This document shows positions 15,499 through 54,619 of a DNA stretch of 64,000 nucleotides, piece after piece. This stretch comes from a gamma proteobacterium HIMB30. GTDB lineage: Bacteria; Pseudomonadota; Gammaproteobacteria; Pseudomonadales; Litorivicinaceae. The DNA lies in the NCBI GenBank assembly GCA_000227525.2, contig AGIG01000027.1, positions 1 to 64,000 of the forward strand, written 5' to 3'. The notes under the pieces are model-generated. The model did no database searches. It saw only the letters and a program-made list of their open reading frames with translations, and had not been told where the DNA came from. Position 1 is the first letter of the stretch, and each line of letters starts with the position of its first letter. Made by a program: the position numbers and the translations under genes.

Positions 15499-15825
15499 CA
15501 GATTTCTCCATAGTTTGCGAGAGTTTGGTGATCTGGTGATACGTGTCGGCACGCACTATAGTGATCGGGTCGTTCGATTTGGTCCAGTCGCAAACACTGC
15601 TTTTTTTTGTGTGACTCGAGACACACGAGGCGACTTGAATGATTGGCTTGTGTAATTTCCTTACAAAATATTGTCGGACAAAGCGTATTGCTATTTATAG
15701 CTACGATGATTTCATTTATGCGTTTCTGTGGCATTCTGGTTGACGTGAGCTGTTCGAGACGTTTCTGGATGTGGATTCGGTAGAACGTTTCATGGATGAA
15801 AGTTTTCAACGGATTGAGGTGGACT
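15499..15825. other. Gene-free divergent region before csrA
   Basis: Divergent region between the b561 gene and csrA. No gene is seen. It holds a T-run (around 15599-15607) next to an imperfect GTGTG/CACAC dyad around CTCGAG, and a weak promoter-like TTGTCG at 15671-15676 with an AT-rich stretch 17 bases on. The long leader before csrA is typical of this autoregulated gene, but no site is certain. Confidence 0.35.
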
Positions 15826-16020
15826 ATGCTTGTATTGACCCGTCGCGTGGATGAATCGATCCGTATCGGCGACGACATTCGGATTACCGTGGTGAAAATC
15901 AAGGGAACCCAGCAAATCTGCGTTGGTGTGGACGCGCCCCGTGACGTGCCTGTGTTGCGCGAAGAGCTGCTGATTGATCGGTCTGAAGTATCTGACGAAG
16001 TCGAATCTTCAAACTCGTAA
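15826..16020 (+). CDS. csrA: Carbon storage regulator CsrA/RsmA
   Basis: Dimeric RNA-binding protein of 64 residues that binds GGA motifs in mRNA leaders, usually blocking ribosomes. It begins [18 protein letters not shown] and continues [19 protein letters not shown] and VLREEL, the complete family core, with a short variable tail. A GAGGT ribosome site precedes the ATG at 15826; the frame continues upstream but family length favours this start. It is 62 bases before alkB. In gammaproteobacteria its activity is set by GGA-rich RNAs; one candidate lies at 42485-42660 in this window. Confidence 0.96.
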
Positions 16021-41761: not shown

Positions 41762-42139
41762 CTAATTCCGTTCAACGAATTCCCAGGTATTTCCAACAAG
41801 GTCTTTAACGAGAACGCAACGGCCAAACGACTCAGTCCTTGGGCCATCGACGATTTCAACTTGGTTTTCCGCGAAACGTATTAAGTCAGTTTCCAGATTT
41901 TCGGTATCGATAAAGACAAAGACTCGCTGACCTGCCTGTCGGCCGACAAGGGCCTCATCGCCTGGTTTGGGTGTGGTAAGATTGAGCGATACACCTTCTT
42001 TGGACGAAGCCACCCGCACGATTCGTTTGCTTTGAGAGATCTCGGTATCTTCGACGAGGGTGAGGCCAAATGCATCGGTGTAGAACATGATGGCGCGGTC
42101 GAGGTCATCGACGAGCAAAGTGATTCGATTCGCTTGCAT
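41762..42139 (-). CDS. VOC-family (glyoxalase/bleomycin resistance-like) protein
   Basis: A 125-residue vicinal-oxygen-chelate fold made of two beta-alpha-beta-beta-beta units: RITLLVDDLDRAIMFYTDAFG in the first and FVFIDTENLETDLIRF with LVKDLVGNTWEFVER in the second. Members bind a metal and act on small electrophiles, or simply sequester drugs. The substrate cannot be predicted. Confidence 0.85.
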   Translation of the reverse strand: MQANRITLLVDDLDRAIMFYTDAFGLTLVEDTEISQSKRIVRVASSKEGVSLNLTTPKPGDEALVGRQAGQRVFVFIDTENLETDLIRFAENQVEIVDGPRTESFGRCVLVKDLVGNTWEFVERN

Positions 42140-42484
42140 ACATCTCTCTGTGTGAGCTTGGGATCAGTTATTCGGACTGAATTAGAGAGAATTTCAGCGT
42201 GGGTTGCAACTGGTGCAATGAAGAGTTGAATGTCGACTGACTAGTCAATGCCTATGACTCGAGTGGTGACAGATCACTGGTATCGAGGACACTGAGGATT
42301 CATCAGCTGAGATCTAAAAGCATCAAAACCGGGATTGACCACAACACAATCCGCGATCGCATCCTCTTTCATAGAACAAAATAATCACAATTATTTTTAT
42401 GATAGTAAATTAATATGAAAAACCACCTTATTTTTTCTGAAACGGTCTTTTTGTCCAAAAAATTATCGTGATATAATTCAGAAA

Positions 42485-42660
42485 TAGGACAAACGCCGGT
42501 CTCCGGTATCCCGAAGGATTGGGAACTTTAGGAAGGATTCGGGCATCGACAGGGATGTCGAATTTATGCTCGAGGACTTTCGTCAACATGCCGTCTCAGG
42601 CGATTTCAGAGTTCTGAGTGAATTACTCTCAAATGACAGCAACCAGTGCGATTGTGGTTA
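42485..42660 (+). ncRNA. Candidate CsrA-binding regulatory RNA (CsrB/RsmY-like)
   Basis: Seven GGA motifs fall within 90 bases (at 42487, 42516, 42522, 42531, 42535, 42553 and 42574). At least two would sit in hairpin loops: CGACA-GGGA-TGTCG (42548-42560), enclosed by CGGGCAT/ATGCTCG arms, and TCCC-GAAGGATT-GGGA (42509-42524). A TATAAT box lies eight bases upstream. This is the pattern of RNAs that titrate CsrA, and csrA is in this window. The 3' end is unclear; a weak AACCA/TGGTT hairpin with a T4 run lies at 42641-42666. Alternatively it is the leader of the small frame at 42566. Confidence 0.45.
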
Positions 42661-42661
42661 A
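42566..42661 (+). CDS. Doubtful 31-residue reading frame
   Basis: An ATG at 42566 opens a frame of 31 codons (MLEDFRQHAVSG to NQCDCG, then TAA). AGGGA lies 11 bases upstream but inside a hairpin loop. The frame stays open further upstream but there contains three AGG arginine codons, unlike the neighbouring genes. It may be a CsrA-controlled small peptide or chance. Confidence 0.2.
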   Translation: MLEDFRQHAVSGDFRVLSELLSNDSNQCDCG

Positions 42662-42726
42662 TCGTTTTAACTGCATTCTGAAGGCTCCTGCGCTGCGTTC
42701 TCTCAGTAACGATTTTTCGTCACTAC

Positions 42727-43338
42727 TCAATCTGTTTTAATCACAAGATCCGCTGGTAAGGCGTGTTGCAAAATCCGGTGTGCATTAGGTAAGTCATTAA
42801 CGCTGATTTTTGCGTGAGCGGCTTCTTGGCTGTAGCCATGAAATAACCATCGATCCATCAATCGGCGTACAATGGTCGCGAGATCTGTTTCAAGAAAAAT
42901 TGTGTAATCCCAATAGTGACTCAGTTCTCGCCAGTCAGGCTCATCGAGGAGCAGGTAGTTGCCTTCCAACACAATAATCTCTGTGGTCGCAGGGATGAGA
43001 GATGCACAGTTGATTGTTTTTTCAGATGAGCGATCGAATACAGGAATGTAAACATCGTTTGGCTCTTTGAGTCTCCTCACTAGAGATCGAAACCCCTCAA
43101 TGTCGAAGGTTTCCGGTGAACCCTTCCGATTCGACAGATTCATGGCGTCGAGGATTGGATTATCCAGATGAAAGCCATCCATCGACAAACATGCGCAATT
43201 GGCGATGTTGTCAGTTAACGCATGTGCGAGCGTTGTCTTACCAGAGCCCGGTGTGCCGGCAATCGCAACCAGTTTTCGTGGTGCGTCGGATGCCTTTAAA
43301 CACACCAGTCGTTGAATAATTTGTTTGGTTGTCTCCAT
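42727..43338 (-). CDS. P-loop kinase of the uridine kinase/phosphoribulokinase-like family
   Basis: A 203-residue kinase with Walker A GTPGSGKT (28-35), a catalytic-side segment CLSMDGFHLDN, and VLEGNYLLLDEPDWRELSHYWDYTIFLE. The lid region has RRLMDRWLFHGYS. This set matches the YggC/FrcK-type branch, some members of which phosphorylate fructose or other sugars. It lies beside, and divergent from, the sorbitol/mannitol operon, which makes a sugar or polyol acceptor plausible. The exact substrate cannot be read. Confidence 0.8.
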   Translation of the reverse strand: METTKQIIQRLVCLKASDAPRKLVAIAGTPGSGKTTLAHALTDNIANCACLSMDGFHLDNPILDAMNLSNRKGSPETFDIEGFRSLVRRLKEPNDVYIPVFDRSSEKTINCASLIPATTEIIVLEGNYLLLDEPDWRELSHYWDYTIFLETDLATIVRRLMDRWLFHGYSQEAAHAKISVNDLPNAHRILQHALPADLVIKTD

Positions 43339-43457
43339 GGCATCAAAGCTTAATGCTTTCGATACTCCGAGATCTAGAGAGCGACCGTTATCGCGCTGTT
43401 ATGCGGTGGCAAGATAGAGGTCCAATTGGAAAGTTTTTTACATATTGGTAGGTATGA

Positions 43458-43520
43458 ATCAATACTTTTTTTACGAAAACTATAAATTATTGCGTCGCAA
43501 CATGCAAAAAAGTATCAATA
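43458..43520. promoter_or_regulatory. Repeat pair before the sorbitol/mannitol operon
   Basis: ATCAATA occurs at 43458-43464 and 43514-43520, and the flanking runs form an inverted pair (AATACTTTTTT and AAAAAAGTAT). A TATAAA box lies between them (43481-43486). Spaced repeats of this kind are typical for AraC-family activators such as the one encoded at 48503; the link is inferred. The rest of 43339-43612 holds nothing clear. Confidence 0.35.
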
Positions 43521-43612
43521 AGAGGGGAAAAAAGTCTACTCTGTTGTTCGCGTGCTCGATTTAATTCGACTATCCACGGGGTGGATCGAGAAACATAACA
43601 AGGAGTCTACAG

Positions 43613-44941
43613 ATGATTCGTAAAACGTCTTTGGGTGTTGCAGTTGCATTATCACTCGCTACGTCAACGGCAGCTCTAGCTGAAACAATCACCATCGCCA
43701 CAGTCAATAACGGCGATATGATCCGCATGCAGGGCTATACAGATCAATTCACACAACAAACGGGCATCAATGTCGAATGGGTAACGCTTGAAGAAAACGT
43801 TCTTCGCCAGCGTGTGACAACCGATATCACGACCAAAGGCGGTGCGTTCGATATCATGACAATCGGCATGTATGAAACACCAATTTGGGGCGCCAATGGT
43901 TGGTTGGTGCCGCTACACAAAAATGTCAATTTCAATACCAACAATCTGTCAGATGCATATGATGTTGATGATATTTTGCCAGCGATGCGTGGTGGTCTGA
44001 GCCACGATGGAACGCTGTATGCAGCTCCCTTCTACGGTGAGAGCTCTATGATCATGTATCGGACTGATCTGATGGCAAAAGCAGGTCTCAAGATGCCAGA
44101 TGCCCCAACTTGGGACTTTATCGCCAAAGCGGCAAAGGCAATGACTGATCGCTCGAACGACATCAACGGGATTTGTCTACGTGGTAAGGCCGGTTGGGGT
44201 GAGGGCGGTGCATTCATCACAGCAATGTCCAACTCATTTGGTGCTCGCTGGTTCGACATGGACTGGAATGCAACCTTTGATCAGAAGCCTTGGGCTGATA
44301 CCTTGAATTTCTTCGTCGGCATGATGAATGAGTCAGGTCCAAAAGGTTATGCAACCAATGGATTTAATGAAAACTTGTCACTGTTCCAGCAAGGCAAGTG
44401 CGGAATGTGGATTGACGCGACCGTTGCAGCGTCTTTCGTAACCAATCCTAAAGACTCAACAGTGGCAGACAAAGTCGGTTTTGCATTGGCTCCTGATACA
44501 GGCCTTGGCAAGCGTTCAAACTGGCTTTGGGCATGGGCACTTGCGATTCCTGCTGGTACTCAGAAGGAAAAAGCCGCGCTTCAGTTTATCGAGTGGGCGA
44601 CTTCGAAAGAGTACATCGAGTTGGTTGCTGCAAAAGAAGGTTGGGCGAACGTTCCTCCTGGAGCCCGTACCTCACTGTATGAAAATCCAAACTATACAAA
44701 GGTACCGTTTGCTCAAATGACTCTGGATTCGATCCTGTCAGCTGATCCAAATAACTCAACTGTTGAACCGAGCCCTTATGTGGGTATTCAGTTTGCAGCG
44801 ATTCCTGAGTTTGCTGGTATTGCGACTCAAGTCAGTCAGGAGTTCTCAGCTGTCTACGCTGGACAACAATCAGTCGAGGAAGCACTTGCGAAGGCGCAAG
44901 ACATCACCAATGAGGCGATGGAAGCAGCGGGCTACCGTTAA
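43613..44941 (+). CDS. smoE: Sorbitol/mannitol ABC transporter substrate-binding protein
   Basis: Periplasmic polyol-binding protein, 442 residues. Signal peptide 1-23 (ALA-ET), then a type I solute-binding fold: TGINVEWVTLEENVLRQRVTTDI, FDIMTIGMYETPIWGANGWL, and GESSMIMYRTDL. These segments match SmoE/MtlE proteins. AAGGAG lies before the ATG at 43613. A strong hairpin follows the gene, and the membrane parts come next. Confidence 0.93.
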   Translation: MIRKTSLGVAVALSLATSTAALAETITIATVNNGDMIRMQGYTDQFTQQTGINVEWVTLEENVLRQRVTTDITTKGGAFDIMTIGMYETPIWGANGWLVPLHKNVNFNTNNLSDAYDVDDILPAMRGGLSHDGTLYAAPFYGESSMIMYRTDLMAKAGLKMPDAPTWDFIAKAAKAMTDRSNDINGICLRGKAGWGEGGAFITAMSNSFGARWFDMDWNATFDQKPWADTLNFFVGMMNESGPKGYATNGFNENLSLFQQGKCGMWIDATVAASFVTNPKDSTVADKVGFALAPDTGLGKRSNWLWAWALAIPAGTQKEKAALQFIEWATSKEYIELVAAKEGWANVPPGARTSLYENPNYTKVPFAQMTLDSILSADPNNSTVEPSPYVGIQFAAIPEFAGIATQVSQEFSAVYAGQQSVEEALAKAQDITNEAMEAAGYR

Positions 44942-44957
44942 TCCCAAGACCTGCTGA

Positions 44958-44984
44958 AGAGGGGCGTTTTGCGCCCCTCTTTCC
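44958..44984 (+). terminator. Stem-loop between smoE and smoF
   Basis: AGAGGGGCG and CGCCCCTCT form a perfect nine-pair stem around TTTTG, followed by TTTCCCT. It lies 16 bases after the smoE stop. As in the glycerol operon, it probably limits transcription into the permease genes or stabilises the smoE message. Confidence 0.7.
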
Positions 44985-45012
44985 CTCAAATAACAACCTG
45001 AAAGGGATTTTT

Positions 45013-45879
45013 TTGGCGACTCAACACTCACGCTCCGCAGCTCGATTCATGATGGCGCCTGCTGTCATGCTGCTGCTCGGTTGGATGCTTGTTCCACTGA
45101 TCATGACCCTTTATTTTTCGTTTAAGAAATATCTGCCCCTGCGTGGAGGGGATCTTGGCTGGGTTGGTTTTGACAACTACGTTCGTTTTGTCTCATCCAG
45201 TTCATTTTGGCCAAGCGTATCGACCACACTGATTATTGTCGGAGGCGTTCTAGCGATCACTTTGATCCTTGGAACGCTCTTGGCGCTGCTTCTTGACCAG
45301 CCTATGTGGGGCCAAGGTATGGTTCGGATTCTCGTAATCGCTCCCTTTTTTGTGATGCCGACGGTATCAGCTTTGGTTTGGAAGAATATGTTCATGGACG
45401 CCAACTATGGACTTTTATCCTATTTATGGGAGTTTTTTGGGGCAGAGCCTGTGCAATGGATGTCGCAGGCGTCGCTGATTTCCATCATCACGATCGTGAG
45501 CTGGCAGTGGTTACCATTTGCCACTCTGATCTTACTGACAGCGATCCAATCGCTTGACCATGAGCAACTTGAAGCGTCAGAGATGGACGGTGCGACAACA
45601 CTGAAACGATTCTGGTACATCATCCTGCCGCATCTCAGTCGCGCAATCACGGTTGTATTACTGATTCAAACAATCTTTCTGTTGTCGATTTTCGCGGAAA
45701 TTTTTGTGACCACGGCTGGTGCCTTTGGTTCCAAAACGCTGACCTATCTGATCTTCCAAAGGGTACTCGAAAGTCAAAATGTGGGCTTAGGCTCCGCCGG
45801 TGGTGTGTACGCCATCATCCTTGCAAACATCGTCGCGATCTTCCTAATGCGGATCGTCGGCCAAAATCTCGATAAATAG
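45013..45879 (+). CDS. smoF: Sorbitol/mannitol ABC transporter permease SmoF
   Basis: MalF-like permease of 288 residues with six helices. The EAA loop is EQLEASEMDGATTLKRFWYIILPHL. The N-terminus (FMMAPAVMLLLGWMLVPLIMTLYFSFKKY) is typical. The start is a TTG at 45013 with AAGGGA at a proper distance (45002-45007); the alternative is an ATG within FMMAP, which lacks a ribosome site. Confidence 0.92.
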   Translation: MATQHSRSAARFMMAPAVMLLLGWMLVPLIMTLYFSFKKYLPLRGGDLGWVGFDNYVRFVSSSSFWPSVSTTLIIVGGVLAITLILGTLLALLLDQPMWGQGMVRILVIAPFFVMPTVSALVWKNMFMDANYGLLSYLWEFFGAEPVQWMSQASLISIITIVSWQWLPFATLILLTAIQSLDHEQLEASEMDGATTLKRFWYIILPHLSRAITVVLLIQTIFLLSIFAEIFVTTAGAFGSKTLTYLIFQRVLESQNVGLGSAGGVYAIILANIVAIFLMRIVGQNLDK

Positions 45880-45888
45880 GGGCTTGTG

Positions 45889-46719
45889 ATGGCGCGAGCA
45901 GTGACTTTTAATCGAAAGACGGGGAACACGATCCTCGCATGGTCGATTGGTCTTCTCATTTTTTTTCCAATTCTATGGACTATCCTCACAAGCTTTAAGA
46001 CTGAGGGTCAGGCAATCGCGGACCCACCCTTATTTTTAATGTTTGATTGGACGCTTGAGAACTATGCGATTGTTCAGGAACGATCCGATTACCTGCGTTT
46101 CTTGACGAATTCAATCATCATTGCAGGTGGGTCGACGCTGCTAGGGATTGTCGTGGCAGTCCCCGCAGCCTGGTCTATGGCCTTTGTTCCCTCGAAACGG
46201 ACCAAAGATATTTTGCTTTGGATGCTGTCGACAAAAATGTTGCCGGCTGTTGGTGTTCTCTATCCGATCTACCTGATCTTTATCGAACTTGGATTACTCG
46301 ACACCAAAATCGGACTCGTTGTAGTTCTGATGCTCATTAATCTGCCAATCATTGTATGGATGCTGTACACCTATTTCCGGGAAATCCCTTCTGAGATTTT
46401 AGAGGCAGCTCGTATGGATGGAGCCTCATTGCGCTCGGAGATACTCTATGTGCTGACACCGATGGCGATTCCCGGAATCGCCTCAACGATTTTGTTGAAT
46501 TTCATTCTGGCCTGGAATGAGGCTTTTTGGACCCTCAACCTGACAGCGGCAAAAGCTGCGCCGTTGACTGCATTCATTGCAAGTTACTCAAGTCCAGAAG
46601 GCCTCTTTTACGCAAAATTAAGTGCCGCATCGACCATGGCTATTGCTCCTATTTTGATTCTTGGATGGTTTAGTCAGAAACAGCTGGTGCGCGGTCTCAC
46701 CTTCGGCGCAGTGAAATAG
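45889..46719 (+). CDS. smoG: Sorbitol/mannitol ABC transporter permease SmoG
   Basis: MalG-like permease, 276 residues, six helices. The EAA loop reads EILEAARMDGASLRSEILYVLTPMAIPG. LSTKMLPAVGVLYPIYLIF and the WNEAFWTLNLT segment are conserved in polyol importers. AGGGG lies seven bases before the ATG at 45889; a GTG one codon earlier is possible. Confidence 0.93.
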   Translation: MARAVTFNRKTGNTILAWSIGLLIFFPILWTILTSFKTEGQAIADPPLFLMFDWTLENYAIVQERSDYLRFLTNSIIIAGGSTLLGIVVAVPAAWSMAFVPSKRTKDILLWMLSTKMLPAVGVLYPIYLIFIELGLLDTKIGLVVVLMLINLPIIVWMLYTYFREIPSEILEAARMDGASLRSEILYVLTPMAIPGIASTILLNFILAWNEAFWTLNLTAAKAAPLTAFIASYSSPEGLFYAKLSAASTMAIAPILILGWFSQKQLVRGLTFGAVK

Positions 46720-46728
46720 GGAACACTC

Positions 46729-47730
46729 ATGGGACGTATCGTATTAGACAAAGTCACCAAAAAATTTGGACATGTCGAAGTCATTCAGCCGCTCGACTTA
46801 ACCATTGAAGAGGGCGAGTTTGTCGTCTTTGTTGGACCGTCTGGATGCGGTAAATCGACTCTGCTTAGACTGATTGCTGGACTCGAAGATGTCACCAGCG
46901 GTGAGATTTACATCGATGAGAGTAAGGCAACCGAGTTGCCACCGGCGCAACGAAAGTTGGCAATGGTATTTCAGTCATACGCGCTTTATCCGCATATGTC
47001 GGTTCGGAAGAATATCGCCTTCCCTCTCAAGATGGCCAAAATGAGTCAAGTGGAGATCGATCGTCGAGTCAATGCAGCGGCTGACGTGTTGAGTTTGACC
47101 GACTATCTCGATCGACGACCAGCACAACTTTCAGGGGGTCAGCGTCAGCGTGTTGCGATTGGCCGTGCCATTGTTCGCGAGCCGTCTGCATTTCTGTTTG
47201 ATGAACCTTTATCAAACCTTGATGCAGCATTACGAGTTGGTATGCGGTTGGAAATCAGTGAACTGCATGCGCGACTGAAGACCACCATGATTTATGTTAC
47301 GCATGACCAAGTCGAAGCAATGACAATGGCTGACAAGATCGTTGTCTTACAAGGGGGAGTGATCGAACAAGTCGGAAGTCCACTTGAGCTGTATCGCAAC
47401 CCCTGTAATCGCTTTGTCGCAGGTTTCATTGGCTCGCCGAAAATGAATTTTATTGAAGGCGATGAAGCGGCCAACTATGGCGCACATACGATCGGTATCC
47501 GCCCTGAGCACATTGTTGTGTCTGAATCCAACGGCGATTGGACAGGTGTTATCAGTGTGTCAGAGCATTTGGGCTCAGATACATTTTTCCATGTTCACGG
47601 CACTGGTCTCGCAGAAACCATTACGGTTCGAGCGGATGGTGAGGTTGCCTTTAAGCATGGCGACACCATCCATCTCTCTCCGCGTGTCGAGATGATCCAT
47701 AAATTTGACGCAAAAGGTCTCCGTGTGTGA
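46729..47730 (+). CDS. smoK: Sorbitol/mannitol ABC transporter ATPase SmoK
   Basis: MalK-like ATPase, 333 residues. All motifs are canonical: Walker A GPSGCGKS (36-43), Q-loop [11 protein letters not shown], signature [14 protein letters not shown], Walker [12 protein letters not shown], switch histidine in [16 protein letters not shown] domain with [10 protein letters not shown] follows. It works as a homodimer, in contrast to the split GlpS/GlpT pair. Its stop overlaps the dehydrogenase start (GTGA). Confidence 0.95.
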
Positions 47731-48500
47731 ACGATGTGAGCGGAAAAAATGTATTAATCACCGGAGCCGCTCGCGGTATCGGTTATGCATTTGCGCGTGC
47801 TTTTATCAAGAACGGTGCAACCGTGATGATCGCTGATTGTGATATCGACCGCGCCGAGCAATCAGCCATTGAACTTGGTAAACACTGCTTTGCCACGCAT
47901 GTGGATGTTGCTGAGCAAGTGAGTATTGATCAGGCGATTAAACATACGATCGACACTATGGGACATATTGATGTCCTGATCAACAATGCGGCTGTGTTTA
48001 CAGCTGCGCCAATTATCGAGATCGATCGAGCGGACTATGACCGCTGTTTTGCGATCAATGTCGCGGGCACCTTATTTATGTTGCAGGCAGTCGCGAAACA
48101 CATGATTGACCGCGGGTGTGGTGGAAAAATAATCAACATGGCTAGCCAGGCTGGTCGCAGAGGCGAGTCGTTGGTTGGTGTCTACTGTGCGTCAAAAGCA
48201 TCTGTGATCAGCCTGACGCAGTCTGCTGGGCTTAACTTGATCAAACATGGCATCCATGTGAATGCGATTGCGCCGGGCGTGGTCGATGGTGAGCACTGGG
48301 ATGGTGTCGATGCATTGTTCGCCAAATATGAATATAAGCCGCTCGGACAGAAAAAAAGAGAAGTGGGAGAAGCAGTCCCGTACGGACGCATGGGTACTGC
48401 TGAGGATTTAGTAGGGATGGCACTGTTTCTGGCATCAAAAGCATCAGATTACGTTGTTGCACAAACCTACAACGTTGATGGTGGGAATTGGATGAGCTAA
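47727..48500 (+). CDS. smoS: Sorbitol dehydrogenase (short-chain type)
   Basis: NAD-dependent short-chain dehydrogenase, 257 residues, converts D-glucitol to fructose (SmoS type, also acts on related polyols). Cofactor motif [19 protein letters not shown] at the fourth strand, catalytic serine in NMASQAG and Y153/K157 in YCASK. GTG start overlaps smoK. The operon context, not the fold, gives the substrate. Confidence 0.9.
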
Positions 48501-48502
48501 CG

Positions 48503-49414
48503 ATGTCGATTGCAGCGGTTCCACAGTTTGAAGTTGTCCCTCCAGAGCTTGGTAGTATCCGCTATCTTGAGCATGGATGGCCTTGCGACTTGATTCGCTG
48601 GCATGCGCATGATGAGTATGAGTTGCATCTAATGGTCGCGACCACGGGAAAAGTTTTCGTGGGTGACTACATTGGTCGGTTCCAGCCTGGCCAGTTTGTG
48701 TTAACTGGTCCGCGATTACCTCATAATTGGGTGACTGAGACAGGTGCGCATGAGGCAGTATCGCTCCGCGATATGGTCATTCAGTTTCGGGATGAATCGT
48801 TGAAACAGCTCGCCGAAGCGTTCCCTGAATTTAAGAATGTTCTGCCGACACTGGAGCTTGCGAAGTCAGGTGTTGAGTTTGTCGGATTTGATCAGAGCGA
48901 AGCGCAAGCGTTATTGGCTTCGGTACGAGACACCCATGGTATCGCTCGAGTTCTCGCATTTCTGAGGGTGTTACAAAAACTTCATGAGTGGCCGAAGAAG
49001 CGTGCCCTAAGCTCCGCAAAAATTCATTCAACCTTGACGGGTGTGGTCGAGTCGAGAATTAACGACGCGGTCGATTATGTTGTCGAGAATTTTGCGCACG
49101 AGATTTCACTCGAACGGATGGCTGCAATGTCAGATATGAGTGCAAGTGCATTTTCTCGCCATTTTCAAAAATCCACGGGGAATAAGTTCGTTGATTTTGT
49201 GAACCAAGTACGTATCGGTAAAGCCTGTGTTTTGTTGACCGAAACCAATGATCAGGTTTCATCAATTTGCTACGCAGTGGGTTTTAATAATATCGCAAAC
49301 TTCAATCGCCACTTTGCGAAGATCAAGGGCGTGACGCCATCTGAGTTTCGGCGAGTCGTTAGAGCAAATCTGAGTCCAGGAACCGCTGGTCATATCGCTC
49401 CAGAGGGCTCATAG
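48503..49414 (+). CDS. AraC-family regulator of the polyol operon
   Basis: A 303-residue activator. N-terminal cupin-like sensor with HAHDEYELHLMVATTGKVFVGDY and PGQFVLTGPRLPHNW, then a C-terminal AraC double helix-turn-helix (about 190-290): LERMAAMSDMSASAFSRHFQKSTG and ICYAVGFNNIANFNRHFAKIKGVTPSEFRR. It lies within the operon, two bases after smoS, and probably activates it in response to a polyol. Confidence 0.9.
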   Translation: MSIAAVPQFEVVPPELGSIRYLEHGWPCDLIRWHAHDEYELHLMVATTGKVFVGDYIGRFQPGQFVLTGPRLPHNWVTETGAHEAVSLRDMVIQFRDESLKQLAEAFPEFKNVLPTLELAKSGVEFVGFDQSEAQALLASVRDTHGIARVLAFLRVLQKLHEWPKKRALSSAKIHSTLTGVVESRINDAVDYVVENFAHEISLERMAAMSDMSASAFSRHFQKSTGNKFVDFVNQVRIGKACVLLTETNDQVSSICYAVGFNNIANFNRHFAKIKGVTPSEFRRVVRANLSPGTAGHIAPEGS

Positions 49415-50848
49415 ATGTTTTTAGGGATCGATCTGGGTACATCCTCACTCAAGGCCGTAGTTATTGATTCGCAACATCAAGTTCGGGCAACAGCGGAAGC
49501 CAACTTAACCATCAGTACTCCCAGGGCCAATTGGTCTGAGCAAGATCCGGTCCATTGGGAAAACGCGTTGGCGTCAGTCTGCGCAGATTTGAGTAGCCAA
49601 ATTCAGTTACAGCAAGTCGAGCGCATCGGGCTGACTGGACAAATGCACGGTGCAACCTGTCTTGATGCCAAAGGTCGTGTCTTGAGGCCTTGTATTCTTT
49701 GGAACGATGGTCGGTCGAGCGATGAATGTAACAAGCTCAATCGCTTGGGTGACGATTTCACGAGGAATTCTGGCAATCTTGCAATGCCCGGGTTCACTGC
49801 GCCAAAGCTGATGTGGCTCAAACAACATGAAGCTGAGATTTATCAACAGATTCGGCATGTGTTGCTGCCAAAGGACTATCTACGATTTGTACTGACTAAC
49901 GAACTATCGACAGATCCTTCTGATGCATCGGGCACCTTGTGGATGAATCCGCGAACCAGGCAATGGGACGACGCATTGATTGAACTCACGACTGTGAATC
50001 GCGCGTGGTTACCCGACGTGATTGAAGGTCCAGAAGAGACTGGAATGGTGACTTTGGAAGCAAGTCGGAAATTTGGCCTTCCACGCGTACCTGTGGTTGC
50101 AGGGGGTGGTGATAACGCGTGTGGTGCGTTGGCGCTTGGGATTTCAAATCCAGGGCAAACATTTATTAGCTTAGGAACATCGGGTGTTTTCTTCACAGTG
50201 AGCGATAGCCATCAGGCGTGTCCGGAAAAAACCGTCCATGCCTTCGCGCATGCGCTGCCAAACACTTGGCATCAAATGACTGTGACATTGAGTGCCGCAT
50301 ATTCATTGAACTGGTTATCGCGTATTACAGGACAGTCGGTAGCGGATATGGTGAATCGAGTCTCTGTCTCAAAACAGACCGAAACAGAGGTGCAATTTCT
50401 CCCATACCTTAATGGTGAGCGGTCACCTCATAATGATCCGGATGCACGTGGCGTATTTCTGAACCTGTCGTCTGCGACCACGGTGGATGATCTTTGTTTA
50501 GCAGTAATGGAAGGAGTCACCTTCTCGTTTTGTGATGGGTTGGCAGCACTCAGAGACGCTGGTTCATCCATTCGTTCGAGCCTGTCCATTGGCGGTGGAA
50601 CGCGCTCGAAATATTGGCTTCAGATGATGGCTAATGCACTTGAGATCACTGTTGAAACATCGGACAGCTCGATAATCGGTCCTTGTTTAGGTGCTGCCCG
50701 TCTCGCGATGACCGATCAAAATACAGCCTATCCAGATGAGCAAATCACTGACCGACTGCAGCCAATGGCAGCTCGCACGGATTACTTTCAGTCAAAATTA
50801 GCGAATTACAGACAATCGTATCTGGCGTTACGACAGATACGGGGATAA
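49415..50848 (+). CDS. xylB: Xylulokinase
   Basis: FGGY-family sugar kinase, 477 residues, phosphorylates D-xylulose to xylulose 5-phosphate. FLGIDLGTSSLKAVVID at the N-terminus, GLTGQMHGATCLD and CILWNDGRSSDECNKL are characteristic of XylB, and PVVAGGGDNACGALALG lies in the second domain. In this operon it would handle xylulose made from D-arabitol by the long-chain dehydrogenase. It starts directly after the araC-type stop. Confidence 0.92.
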   Translation: MFLGIDLGTSSLKAVVIDSQHQVRATAEANLTISTPRANWSEQDPVHWENALASVCADLSSQIQLQQVERIGLTGQMHGATCLDAKGRVLRPCILWNDGRSSDECNKLNRLGDDFTRNSGNLAMPGFTAPKLMWLKQHEAEIYQQIRHVLLPKDYLRFVLTNELSTDPSDASGTLWMNPRTRQWDDALIELTTVNRAWLPDVIEGPEETGMVTLEASRKFGLPRVPVVAGGGDNACGALALGISNPGQTFISLGTSGVFFTVSDSHQACPEKTVHAFAHALPNTWHQMTVTLSAAYSLNWLSRITGQSVADMVNRVSVSKQTETEVQFLPYLNGERSPHNDPDARGVFLNLSSATTVDDLCLAVMEGVTFSFCDGLAALRDAGSSIRSSLSIGGGTRSKYWLQMMANALEITVETSDSSIIGPCLGAARLAMTDQNTAYPDEQITDRLQPMAARTDYFQSKLANYRQSYLALRQIRG

Positions 50849-50862
50849 TAAGGACTCAAACG

Positions 50863-52287
50863 ATGGCAACAGAGAATTTGGAACGGATTCCCTACGAAAG
50901 AAGTCAGATTACAGCAGGAATTATGCATGTTGGCGTGGGTGCGTTTCATCGAGCGCATCAGGCGGTCTACATTGACCGTCTATTAAAGGAACATCCGCAA
51001 TGGGGAATCTGTGGTGTGAATTTGCGTACTGAAGATCGTCCGTTATTTGAGGCCCTGAATGCACAAGATGGGGTCTATGTCCTCAAAACTATTTCTCCTA
51101 ACGGCGAGATGGCGTTTCGTGAGGTCGGTTCAATCATCGAGTTGATTGACGCTTCTTCTGCGTATCATGTTGCGGTCCAACGCGCGTCAGATGACGCAAT
51201 CCGCGTTGTCTCAATGACGGTCACTGAGAGCGGATACAACCTAGATGATGACAATGTGTTGGATTTGACTGCTCAGCCAATCGTTGATGGTTTAGCCACT
51301 GGAGTTGGGTCATCGATTTACACATTTCTCCACGCAGTAATTCGTGCACGCTCAAGTGAGGGATCAGGTCCAGTCACTTTTTTGTGTTGTGACAATTTGC
51401 GTGACAACGGAGGCAAACTGAAAGCAGGCCTCATGCAGTATCTGGAGGCTTCGGACGATCAAGAGGCGATGACATGGGCGCATGATCACGTCACTTTCCC
51501 TTGTTGCATGGTTGATCGGATTACACCACGCATCGATCCACGTCACAGCGATGATGTTGTCAAACGTTTTGGTGTCTCTGATGCGGTGACTGTAATGGGA
51601 GAATCGTACATTCAGTGGGTTCTGGAGGATCACTTTGCAAATGGCCGTCCTCCACTTGAAATGGTTGGCGTAGAGATCGTCGATGATGTTGAACCTTATG
51701 AAGACGCAAAGATTCGTGTCTTAAATGGTGGTCACACGATTTTGACTTATCTTGCGGCTTTAAAAGGGCATCATACATACGATGCTGGAATTCTTGATCC
51801 CGAGTTACGCGAGTTTTTTAGGGCGTATGAGACCGAAGAGGTGATTCCTGCGATTGGTGATTCTCCAATCGATTTAGCAGCATATCGAGATATTATTGAG
51901 TCTCGATTTTCGAATCAGCATATTGGTGACACAGTCGAACGGATTTGTATGGACGGCGTCAGCAAATTTCCAATTTTTGTGTTGCCGACCATGAAAGGCA
52001 CGGTCGATCGAGGACAGGTTCCTATTCATTCAATTCACGGGATCGCATCATGGTATGTTTTCATGCGACATGCAGGCGCTGGGATGATTCCGTTTCGGTA
52101 CGTTGAGCCAAAGTGGGATTGGATCTCACCAATGCTCGCGAGAGGACAAGAAGAGAGATTCGCTAGAGAGCCTGACTTGTGGGGTGACATTCCTGATCGT
52201 TGTCCCGAATTTGTCACACGCCTCGTTGCTGAAATTGCGCAACTCGATCGTGTGTTCTCAGATCAAGCAGAAGGAGTCACTGGGTGA
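50863..52287 (+). CDS. mtlK: Mannitol 2-dehydrogenase (polyol long-chain dehydrogenase)
   Basis: Zinc-independent long-chain polyol dehydrogenase, 474 residues; oxidises D-mannitol to fructose, and often D-arabitol to xylulose. HVGVGAFHRAHQAVYIDRLL is the N-terminal signature. The catalytic lysine lies in KIRVLNGGHTILTYLA and the active-site asparagine/histidine in the same segment (NGGH). It overlaps the fructokinase gene by four bases. Confidence 0.93.
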   Translation: MATENLERIPYERSQITAGIMHVGVGAFHRAHQAVYIDRLLKEHPQWGICGVNLRTEDRPLFEALNAQDGVYVLKTISPNGEMAFREVGSIIELIDASSAYHVAVQRASDDAIRVVSMTVTESGYNLDDDNVLDLTAQPIVDGLATGVGSSIYTFLHAVIRARSSEGSGPVTFLCCDNLRDNGGKLKAGLMQYLEASDDQEAMTWAHDHVTFPCCMVDRITPRIDPRHSDDVVKRFGVSDAVTVMGESYIQWVLEDHFANGRPPLEMVGVEIVDDVEPYEDAKIRVLNGGHTILTYLAALKGHHTYDAGILDPELREFFRAYETEEVIPAIGDSPIDLAAYRDIIESRFSNQHIGDTVERICMDGVSKFPIFVLPTMKGTVDRGQVPIHSIHGIASWYVFMRHAGAGMIPFRYVEPKWDWISPMLARGQEERFAREPDLWGDIPDRCPEFVTRLVAEIAQLDRVFSDQAEGVTG

Positions 52288-53219
52288 TTGTGATTGGTGG
52301 TGATGCCCTCGTTGATTTGATTGACTGTGGACAGCGTCTGTTTGAGGCGTGTCCGGGGGGCTCAACACTGAACTGTGCGTTAGCTGCCGGTCAGTTGGGA
52401 TCCCAGGTGTTGTATGTGTCGACACTCAGCACAGATTCCTATGGTGACTTACTTGCGAACCGGTTGACAGAGTGTCATGTGAGTTTGCGAACTGATGCGC
52501 GTTCCTCGGCGAATACCTCGCTAGCCGTTGTCTCCTTAGATGAAACCAATCAACCAAGTTATGCCTTTTATCGCGAGGGGACGGCTGACCGAGATGTTCC
52601 TGTCGCTGATATCGTCGCTTCGTTCCCTGAAACGATGTCGATCTTTCATGTGGGATCTTGTGCGTTGATTCCTACCGAGGATCAGGATGCGTGGCTTCAG
52701 GTGGTGATGGCAGCTAAAGATCGCGGTGCACTGATCTCCATCGATCCGAACTGTCGTCCGTCGATGACTAAAGATCCGATTGCGTACCGAGAGGGAATTG
52801 CACGCTTCCTTCACGTGGCAGATCTCATCAAATGTAGTGATGAAGACCTCGAGTACCTTCACCCTGAATGGACTGATCGCGCACTTGAGAAGTTGATCGA
52901 GACTTATTCTCCGCAATTGTATGTATACACTGAGGGTGCAGAGGGACTTCGAGCCTTCACAAAGTTAGGCGCCTCAGCGCAGGTGTCTGCATCGCTACCA
53001 GGGCCTCCGTCCGATACGGTAGGTGCAGGGGATTCAGTGCATGGGACATTACTTTCAGAAATCGATCGCCTGGATTTGGTTGGACAACAACTCTCTGAAC
53101 TCAACGAGTCACAATTAACAGAGATGCTGCTTTTAGCGTCACGTGTCGCCGGTGTGAACTGTACACGCGCAGGCTGCCAACCACCGACGAGGGAAGAGGT
53201 GGCGGAGATTTTTGGCTAG
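52284..53219 (+). CDS. frk: Fructokinase (PfkB family)
   Basis: Phosphorylates fructose from the two dehydrogenases to fructose 6-phosphate. The 311-residue PfkB protein has the substrate-binding GGSTLNCALAAGQLG and the catalytic DTVGAGDS (D250). Starts with GTG overlapping mtlK. It ends the operon, and its stop overlaps the convergent transaldolase stop by four bases (CTAG). Fructose 6-phosphate would enter the Entner-Doudoroff route after isomerisation by an enzyme not in this window. Confidence 0.92.
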   Translation: MIVIGGDALVDLIDCGQRLFEACPGGSTLNCALAAGQLGSQVLYVSTLSTDSYGDLLANRLTECHVSLRTDARSSANTSLAVVSLDETNQPSYAFYREGTADRDVPVADIVASFPETMSIFHVGSCALIPTEDQDAWLQVVMAAKDRGALISIDPNCRPSMTKDPIAYREGIARFLHVADLIKCSDEDLEYLHPEWTDRALEKLIETYSPQLYVYTEGAEGLRAFTKLGASAQVSASLPGPPSDTVGAGDSVHGTLLSEIDRLDLVGQQLSELNESQLTEMLLLASRVAGVNCTRAGCQPPTREEVAEIFG

Positions 53220-53842
53220 CTTCTGGCTGCCTCTTCAAAATCGACAATTGCTTTATCAGCGAGTGTCGATTCAAAGAAGGTTCTAGCAATTGGTTCTGGA
53301 AGTGCGAAGCTTGAAAAACCGCGTGCTGCCAGATCGAGGAACTGCTCATTCGATCGCAGGCTCGCAACCAAGAGTTCGGTTTCAAACGCAATATCCTGCA
53401 TCCGATCAAATAGCGCATCTGCATTGTCGATCGCTTCTTTGAGTCTTGCGTAATAGGGTGCCGTGTAGGCAACTTGAAGCGCTTCAGCCGCGATAACTTG
53501 GCCGTCTGAATAGACTGCTGTCAGTGTTGTCCGATCAGGAAGGCTCAGCTCCGAGACCACTTCAAAGCCCTTCTTATTTGCTGGGATTTTGATAAATACC
53601 TCTGGCCCAATGGGCGCAATTGACCGCGCACATTGGAGCCAATCCGCACCAAATACCTGAAACTGAATACATGGAAAGCCAAGCTTCATCGCTCGCTCAT
53701 AGAGGGCTTGGTATGTCTCAGTCGATGTCTTCAGACCTGCGCGTTGAATCAATAGCGGATTGGTGGTGATTCCAGAAAAGAGCCCGGTGCCTGAGAGGTC
53801 TGTCCAGCAGTCAGTATTTGCTGTGTCGAGGAATAGATTCAT
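53216..53842 (-). CDS. Transaldolase / fructose-6-phosphate aldolase-like protein
   Basis: A 208-residue protein of the small transaldolase (TalC/MipB) subfamily. It begins MNLFLDTANTD, has FSGITTNPLLIQRAG, and the Schiff-base lysine K85 in VFIKIPANKKG; the rest of the barrel follows. Members either move dihydroxyacetone units (transaldolase) or split fructose 6-phosphate. Residue-level reading does not decide which. The ATG at 53842 gives usual family length. Confidence 0.88.
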   Translation of the reverse strand: MNLFLDTANTDCWTDLSGTGLFSGITTNPLLIQRAGLKTSTETYQALYERAMKLGFPCIQFQVFGADWLQCARSIAPIGPEVFIKIPANKKGFEVVSELSLPDRTTLTAVYSDGQVIAAEALQVAYTAPYYARLKEAIDNADALFDRMQDIAFETELLVASLRSNEQFLDLAARGFSSFALPEPIARTFFESTLADKAIVDFEEAARS

Positions 53843-53950
53843 GATGGTGAGTATAACTTTCAATCCTCGAAGATACAGAAAAATCGCGACAAGCAAGTCT
53901 GTTTGATTTGGCTACAGTCTCCCAAAGAGCAATCATTTTGAGGTAATCCA

Positions 53951-54310
53951 ATGGATTATTTGTCTGGGATTTTGCATACTGTCGTGGAGTTACCTGAATT
54001 TATAAAACGGTCTGAAAATTTTTTGTCCGAGAATGCACGGATGGATCTTATTGAATACCTTGTGGCTTATCCAACAGCGGGTGTTTTGATTCGGGGTGCC
54101 GGTGGATTAAGAAAACTCAGGTGGGCGTCGAAAGGAAAAGGTAAGCGAGGTGGACTTCGGGTGCTGTATTACTACTGTGATCGTGAGATGCCACTGTTTC
54201 TGCTCACAGTATTTGAGAAGGCTAATCAACCTGACTTATCGCAGAAAGAATGTAAAGAGCTAGCAGAACTAACGACTTTGTTAAGACAGCAATATAGGGG
54301 TGACCGATGA
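53951..54310 (+). CDS. RelE/HigB-type toxin
   Basis: A 119-residue RelE-superfamily protein of the type II toxin class that cleaves mRNA on the ribosome. GAGGLRKLRWASKGKGKRGGLRVLYYYCDRE is the basic core with the central beta strands, and LFLLTVFEKANQPDLSQKECKEL is typical. AGGTAATCC lies before the ATG. Its stop overlaps the antitoxin start (ATGA). The toxin-first order is typical of HigBA-like pairs. Confidence 0.88.
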   Translation: MDYLSGILHTVVELPEFIKRSENFLSENARMDLIEYLVAYPTAGVLIRGAGGLRKLRWASKGKGKRGGLRVLYYYCDREMPLFLLTVFEKANQPDLSQKECKELAELTTLLRQQYRGDR

Positions 54311-54594
54311 GCGACATCTTTGAAAGTGTTCGGCAAGGGCTGACTGAAGCGATTGCGCTGAAAAATAGTCATTGTTCACAAGCGGTTATTCATCAGTATT
54401 CGTCGCTAGATGTGAAGTCAATACGCTGGAAAGTCGGAATGACACAACAAGAATTTGCGGACGCATTTGGGATTAGTGTGAGTACATTACGACATTGGGA
54501 GCGCGGTGATCGACGTCCAAGAGGCCCGGCTTTAGTTCTGTTGAATGTGGTTGATAGAGATCCTGAGGCTGTTTTGAGAGCGCTTCGTTCATAA
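54307..54594 (+). CDS. HigA/NadS-type antitoxin with helix-turn-helix
   Basis: A 95-residue protein with a C-terminal Xre-type helix-turn-helix (about 44-80): RWKVGMTQQEFADAFGISVSTLRHWERGDRRPRGPA. The N-terminal part (1-40) would wrap the toxin. It neutralises the upstream toxin and probably represses the pair. Its TAA falls inside the T-run of the nrdB terminator read on the other strand. Confidence 0.88.
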   Translation: MSDIFESVRQGLTEAIALKNSHCSQAVIHQYSSLDVKSIRWKVGMTQQEFADAFGISVSTLRHWERGDRRPRGPALVLLNVVDRDPEAVLRALRS

Positions 54595-54619
54595 AAAAGC
54601 CCAGACCGAAGTCTGGGCT
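54593..54619 (-). terminator. Intrinsic terminator of nrdA-nrdB
   Basis: On the minus strand, AGCCCAGAC and GTCTGGGCT form a nine-pair stem with a TTCG loop, followed by six T. It lies 21 bases after the nrdB stop. The same hairpin may also stop plus-strand transcription from the toxin-antitoxin pair, but without a T-run there. Confidence 0.9.

Follow-up and report, generated by a model that had tools for sequence, protein, structure and literature searches.

A conserved GGA-bearing intergenic RNA of the marine genus Litoricola, a likely Csr/Rsm-type sponge for CsrA

Within the 64,000-nucleotide stretch of gammaproteobacterial DNA analysed here (the window), a GGA-rich intergenic segment almost certainly specifies a conserved non-coding RNA, its transcription being judged from the sequence, that is so far known only from the marine genus Litoricola. 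The RNA is predicted to display GGA sites of the type bound by CsrA, and it is therefore most likely a CsrA decoy. We consider it likely that it represents a lineage-specific sponge of the Csr/Rsm type whose main role is the titration of CsrA. In the proposed mechanism a stand-alone small RNA (42484 to ∼42593) would be transcribed from an extended -10 promoter, and its conserved hairpins and single strands would offer approximately five GGA sites, including two in hairpin loops, to CsrA-family proteins. CsrA dimers would thus be titrated and the CsrA repression of mRNAs relieved, as with CsrB or RsmY/Z. The relevant features are collected in Table 1.

Table 1. Positions of the predicted RNA, its parts and its candidate partner in the window
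Feature	Position	Strand	Basis or remark
Promoter: TCTTTTTGTCC (42446-42456) and extended -10 box TGATATAAT	42446-42477	+	Alignment of members
Predicted non-coding RNA, ∼105-110 nt	42484-42593	+	Covariance model R1, 38-121 bits; start placed from the -10 box
5' AGGACA, first GGA site	42486-42491	+	Unpaired in consensus; kept in 12/12 members reaching it
Hairpin 1, GCCGG-TCT-CCGGT, no GGA	42495-42507	+	Pairs kept in all; GC to AU compensatory in L092
Hairpin 2, TCCCGA-AGGA-TTGGGA, GGA in loop	42509-42524	+	Loop GGA invariant in 13/13; CG to GC compensatory in L003
Hairpin 3, outer stem GGAAG/CTTTC, internal loop GA/GA	42531-42584	+	
Hairpin 3, middle stem TTCGGGCA/TGCTCGAG, apical hairpin TCGACAGGGATGTCGA	within 42531-42584	+	
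ACAGGGATGT, SELEX-type putative CsrA site	42549-42558	+	AGGGAT hexaloop closed by AC/GT
csrA2, second CsrA paralogue, candidate partner	15826-16017	+	PF02599, 71.5 bits

Conservation, promoter and predicted fold

A first-pass annotation of the window had drawn attention to seven GGA motifs in 90 bases behind a TATAAT box. Both elements were confirmed: GGA occurs at 42487, 42516, 42522, 42531, 42535, 42553 and 42574 (42487-42576 in all), and the hexamer, at 42472-42477, lies within the extended -10 box TGATATAAT. By count alone this enrichment is marginal, near chance, and constitutes weak evidence. The plus strand of the window averages 1.56 GGA per 110 bases, seven GGA per 110 bases are reached at four of its places, and the observed count recurs in 4.25% of shuffles of the intergenic region and in 6.6% of shuffles of the segment itself. 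The count was thus rejected as proof, and the case is decided by comparison with relatives.

When 58 related genomes were searched at the DNA level, positions 42440-42601 were found at 79-97% identity in 12 of them, each belonging to this genus. In the more distant of these relatives the intergenic DNA on either side was much less similar or not similar at all. Scanning an exact pattern from the RNA core against 84,980 bacterial and archaeal species returned 12 records, every one in the Litoricola lineage (several named Litoricola, one the isolate LSUCC0096 and others gammaproteobacterial assemblies). A covariance model (R1) built from 12 members detected the RNA in 13 of the 22 genomes of the genus and in none of three sister-genus genomes, and in 295 genomes of the order the matches outside the genus were at chance level (E ∼0.01-0.08 per genome). 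The recurring unit consists of the promoter and ∼105 nt of RNA (42446-42593). The extent originally given, 42472-42663, therefore covers a real stretch but ends ∼70 bases too far, since the conserved RNA ends near 42593. The GGA-rich stretch is real because it is conserved in relatives; against the 4% of shuffled intergenic regions that reach its GGA count stand the sequence, structure and promoter kept in 13 genomes, which leave chance GGA-rich intergenic DNA with a negligible probability.

Seven of the nine RNA-less genomes of the genus also lack nrdB and the glyoxalase gene that adjoins the RNA elsewhere, indicating that those assemblies do not cover this chromosomal region. In another, G002, the contig stops ∼255 bases past the glyoxalase start, and G014 is the only genome of the genus with an intact locus but no RNA. 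In the sister genus the glyoxalase gene adjoins prs, and the absence of the RNA there is consequently uninformative about ancestry.

TGn and the -10 hexamer are retained in all 12 members whose promoter lies on the contig, and a TGTCC or TGTCT element is located 15 bases ahead of the hexamer. The distance from the -10 box would place the transcription start near 42484. In nearly all members a TGTCC/GGACA inverted repeat surrounds the -10 box (42452-42491); this repeat is possibly an operator, or else the first GGA site and a -35-like element may form it by chance. No canonical terminator was found for the RNA, the only candidate being the apical part of hairpin 3, whose T run is poor; the short pyrimidine run past hairpin 3 is kept in kind, not in sequence. 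Near the RNA there is no GacA box (TGTAAGN6CTTACA) within three mismatches, the best match across 12 loci having four.

Folding the window sequence by minimum free energy (MFE) and deriving an RNAalifold consensus from 12 members led to the same three hairpin units, the third being a long interrupted stem; the MFE z-scores are -2.3 (137 nt) and -3.0 (110 nt). In a model-based alignment of 13 members (12 distinct) 94% of the cells were paired, a figure that leans toward the model to which this alignment was fitted, and four pairs carried compensatory changes. An independent MAFFT alignment resulted in 95% pairing and three compensatory pairs. In every slid control of the model-based alignment pairing reached at most 48%, and most of these controls had no compensatory pairs. 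Within hairpin 3 six distinct members have a compensatory AU to GC change and one member a GU to CG change, and GGAAGGATTCG and CGACANGGA are invariant.

GGA sites and candidate CsrA binding

Five GGAs are invariant among the members whose sequence extends to them, namely those in the 5' AGGACA, in the hairpin 2 loop, in GGAAGGA (two) and in the hairpin 3 loop, and conservation at 42522 and 42574 is incomplete. Two of the five are in hairpin loops, in keeping with the first-pass annotation, which had placed two GGAs in small hairpin loops (42516 and 42553, in predicted hairpins) and had held that a lack of conserved GGA loops in relatives would count against the proposed RNA; in the alignment of relatives the loop GGAs of hairpins 2 and 3 were both kept. 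The GGAAGGA pair straddles the outer stem of hairpin 3, which is weak, and the adjoining GA/GA internal loop; being partly within that stem, these two of the five conserved sites would require it to open.

The hairpin 3 loop of the window, ACAGGGATGT, corresponds to the core of the SELEX consensus RUACARGGAUGU and is the only match to ACARGGAYGT in the window. Most SELEX-derived CsrA ligands have a six-base loop closed by AC/GU (PMC7652899). CANGGAYG is found at this loop in all members except L008. Of six RNA-holding genomes, five contain the 14-base hairpin pattern CGACANGGANGTCG once and the sixth contains it twice; it does not occur in G014, which has no RNA. From these features it is highly probable that the RNA binds CsrA.

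Such binding would also be displayed by a structured small RNA that acts mainly through mRNA base pairing or another protein, and whose GGAs only recruit CsrA as a stabilizer or cofactor. The base-pairing RNAs McaS and Spot42 are known to bind CsrA (PMC11882849), there are only about five GGA sites, and GGAAGGA, which like the CCGG hairpin is strictly conserved, could pair with pyrimidine-rich mRNA. However, conservation is highest in the GGA cores of CsrA-type hairpins and the RNA is linked to csrA2 (see below), and we regard a role of this kind as unlikely compared with that of a sponge.

A further alternative, raised by the first-pass annotation, is a CsrA-regulated leader of a 31-codon frame at 42566-42661. 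This frame does exist, but its product has no family match, and its ATG pairs with the CAT of the hairpin 3 middle stem and so forms the 3' side of that stem. In relatives the middle stem becomes CGGGCGT/ACGCCCG and the ATG is replaced by ACG (GCG in L012) across L008-L012, with frames that differ in length and sequence. Being one side of a stem and lost in relatives, the start codon does not support a leader of this frame, and the reading fails. The coding reading of 42566 was rejected for the same lack of a conserved start codon and frame. L007 and L008 do not retain an alternative ATG located in the apical hairpin, and the downstream frames of the members have no sequence in common. A leader of the downstream gene would suit L081, L082, L089, L091 and L093, which have a PfkB gene downstream in the same orientation, but the downstream genes are convergent in the window and in G001, G003, G007, G009, G015 and G020. 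With neighbours that vary and are often convergent, a leader of the downstream operon was likewise rejected. A CsrA-regulated leader, whether of the 31-codon frame or of a downstream gene, is very improbable.

A fixed upstream and a changing downstream neighbour

In every member whose contig extends far enough, the gene upstream of the RNA is a divergent one with a glyoxalase fold (41762-42139 in the window). The downstream neighbour is a kinase gene with the polyol operon in the window, nrdB in G003, G007 and G020, a PfkB kinase in G005, G008, G017, G018 and G021, and a ROK gene in G001, G009 and G015. This combination of a fixed upstream and a changing downstream neighbour indicates that the RNA forms an independent gene bordering a site where the sugar genes vary, rather than belonging to one operon. 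The placement in a 'carbon island' proposed earlier is not general: the polyol operon lies downstream in the window, and relatives have nrdB, PfkB or ROK genes instead.

Between the RNA and nrdB (42600-54600 in the window) lies a sugar-gene hot spot, which in a given genome may hold the polyol operon, PfkB, a ROK regulator or nothing at all. Remnants of the 3' end of a ROK gene apparently lie beside the RNA in L003-L005. A search for a phage origin of the stretch gave no match.

CsrA paralogues, GacA and known Csr/Rsm RNAs

csrA genes are present in 24 of 25 family genomes, two or more in nearly all of them, and at least one in all 13 RNA-holding genomes. The window does encode a CsrA, as the first-pass annotation had stated, but this is the second paralogue, csrA2; the copy closest to the family profile is on another contig (C35 of G000). 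G000 has three csrA genes, the third of which (C9:177961-178107) is ∼72% identical to csrA2.

Seven genomes (G000, G001, G003, G005, G018, G019 and G020) have csrA2 and the RNA on one contig, and in each of them the two share a strand, the RNA being 5-27 kb downstream. G014 keeps the surrounding gene order at both sites but has neither csrA2 nor the RNA; this joint absence, a single event in an 87%-complete genome, is only suggestive of a link between them. Perhaps the sponge serves csrA2 among the CsrA paralogues. That the two would constitute a GacA-independent unit, in which a lineage-specific CsrA has a sponge dedicated to it, with both kept on one strand at this distance, lost together and separate from the other CsrA, is a tentative proposal that we rate as rather doubtful.

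The csrA2 leader (15745-15828) contains GTTTCATGGATGAAA, in which CANGGAYG lies between TTTCA/TGAAA arms, as well as several further GGAs. Conservation of GTTTCATGGATGAAA in most relatives suggests that csrA2 may itself be under CsrA control (autoregulation). In the MFE fold of the window's csrA2 leader GTTTCATGGATGAAA is not formed as an isolated hairpin.

No protein in the genomes examined scored as a GacA orthologue above the NF007018 cut-off, which was set on UvrY-type proteins and below which a divergent GacA could fall. Weaker LuxR-type regulators occurred in part of the genomes, the rest lacking them or having broken copies, and this distribution was unrelated to the presence of the RNA. 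A UvrY/GacA-related LuxR-type response regulator is interrupted by stops in G021:C48, G018:C27 and G004:C45 and apparently absent from other relatives.

The computed properties of the RNA are those of the sponge class: conserved GGAs in loops or single strands, its own promoter with no conserved frame, and csrA in the genome. The CsrB/RsmY-type design attributed to it at first reading is borne out by the conserved structure, GGA loops, SELEX-type hairpin and conserved promoter. The Rfam covariance search proposed at the same time turned out differently, with no match at gathering or relaxed thresholds, the CsrB, CsrC and RsmX/Y/Z families included. The RsmZ model (RF00166) found nothing above its cut-off in 25 genomes, and none of its weak sub-cut-off matches was at the RNA locus. 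The RNA would accordingly work like CsrB or RsmY without being one of them.

Like RsmX, RsmY and RsmZ of Pseudomonas it is ∼105-125 nt long and intergenic, with its own promoter, GGAs in loops and single strands, and CsrA-family genes in the genome. In contrast to these RNAs it has no covariance match, GacA box or clear terminator hairpin, and its sequence is unrelated. RsmV of P. aeruginosa has CANGGAYG as its repeated site (PMC9308961), in stem-loops resembling the apical part of hairpin 3, and RsmW has seven GGAs, as does the Litoricola RNA. Expression of RsmW is enhanced, not lost, in a gacA mutant (PMC9308961). RsmV and RsmW differ in their length (192 and 224 nt), in the derivation of RsmW from a 3' UTR, and in having no sequence relation to the Litoricola RNA. 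With CsrB and CsrC of Enterobacterales the RNA shares the presumed titration of CsrA; these are longer, have far more GGA sites (22 and 14; PMC11882849), and their Rfam models did not match the RNA. Five GGA sites are few compared with E. coli CsrB and similar to the short Rsm RNAs, RsmV having four such sites (PMC9308961). Among open-access papers none was found on Litoricola together with CsrA or a small RNA, subscription papers falling mostly outside that search. With no Rfam match either, the RNA is likely a new one of a known functional kind, the Csr/Rsm type.

If this reading is correct, the RNA would supply the missing RNA arm of the Csr system in an abundant marine lineage with small genomes, and a covariance model is now available to find it. 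The lineage would provide natural tests of whether CsrA paralogues own separate sponges and of a Csr system running without GacA input. Sponge RNAs would then turn over between genera, with the CsrA-binding hairpin retained.
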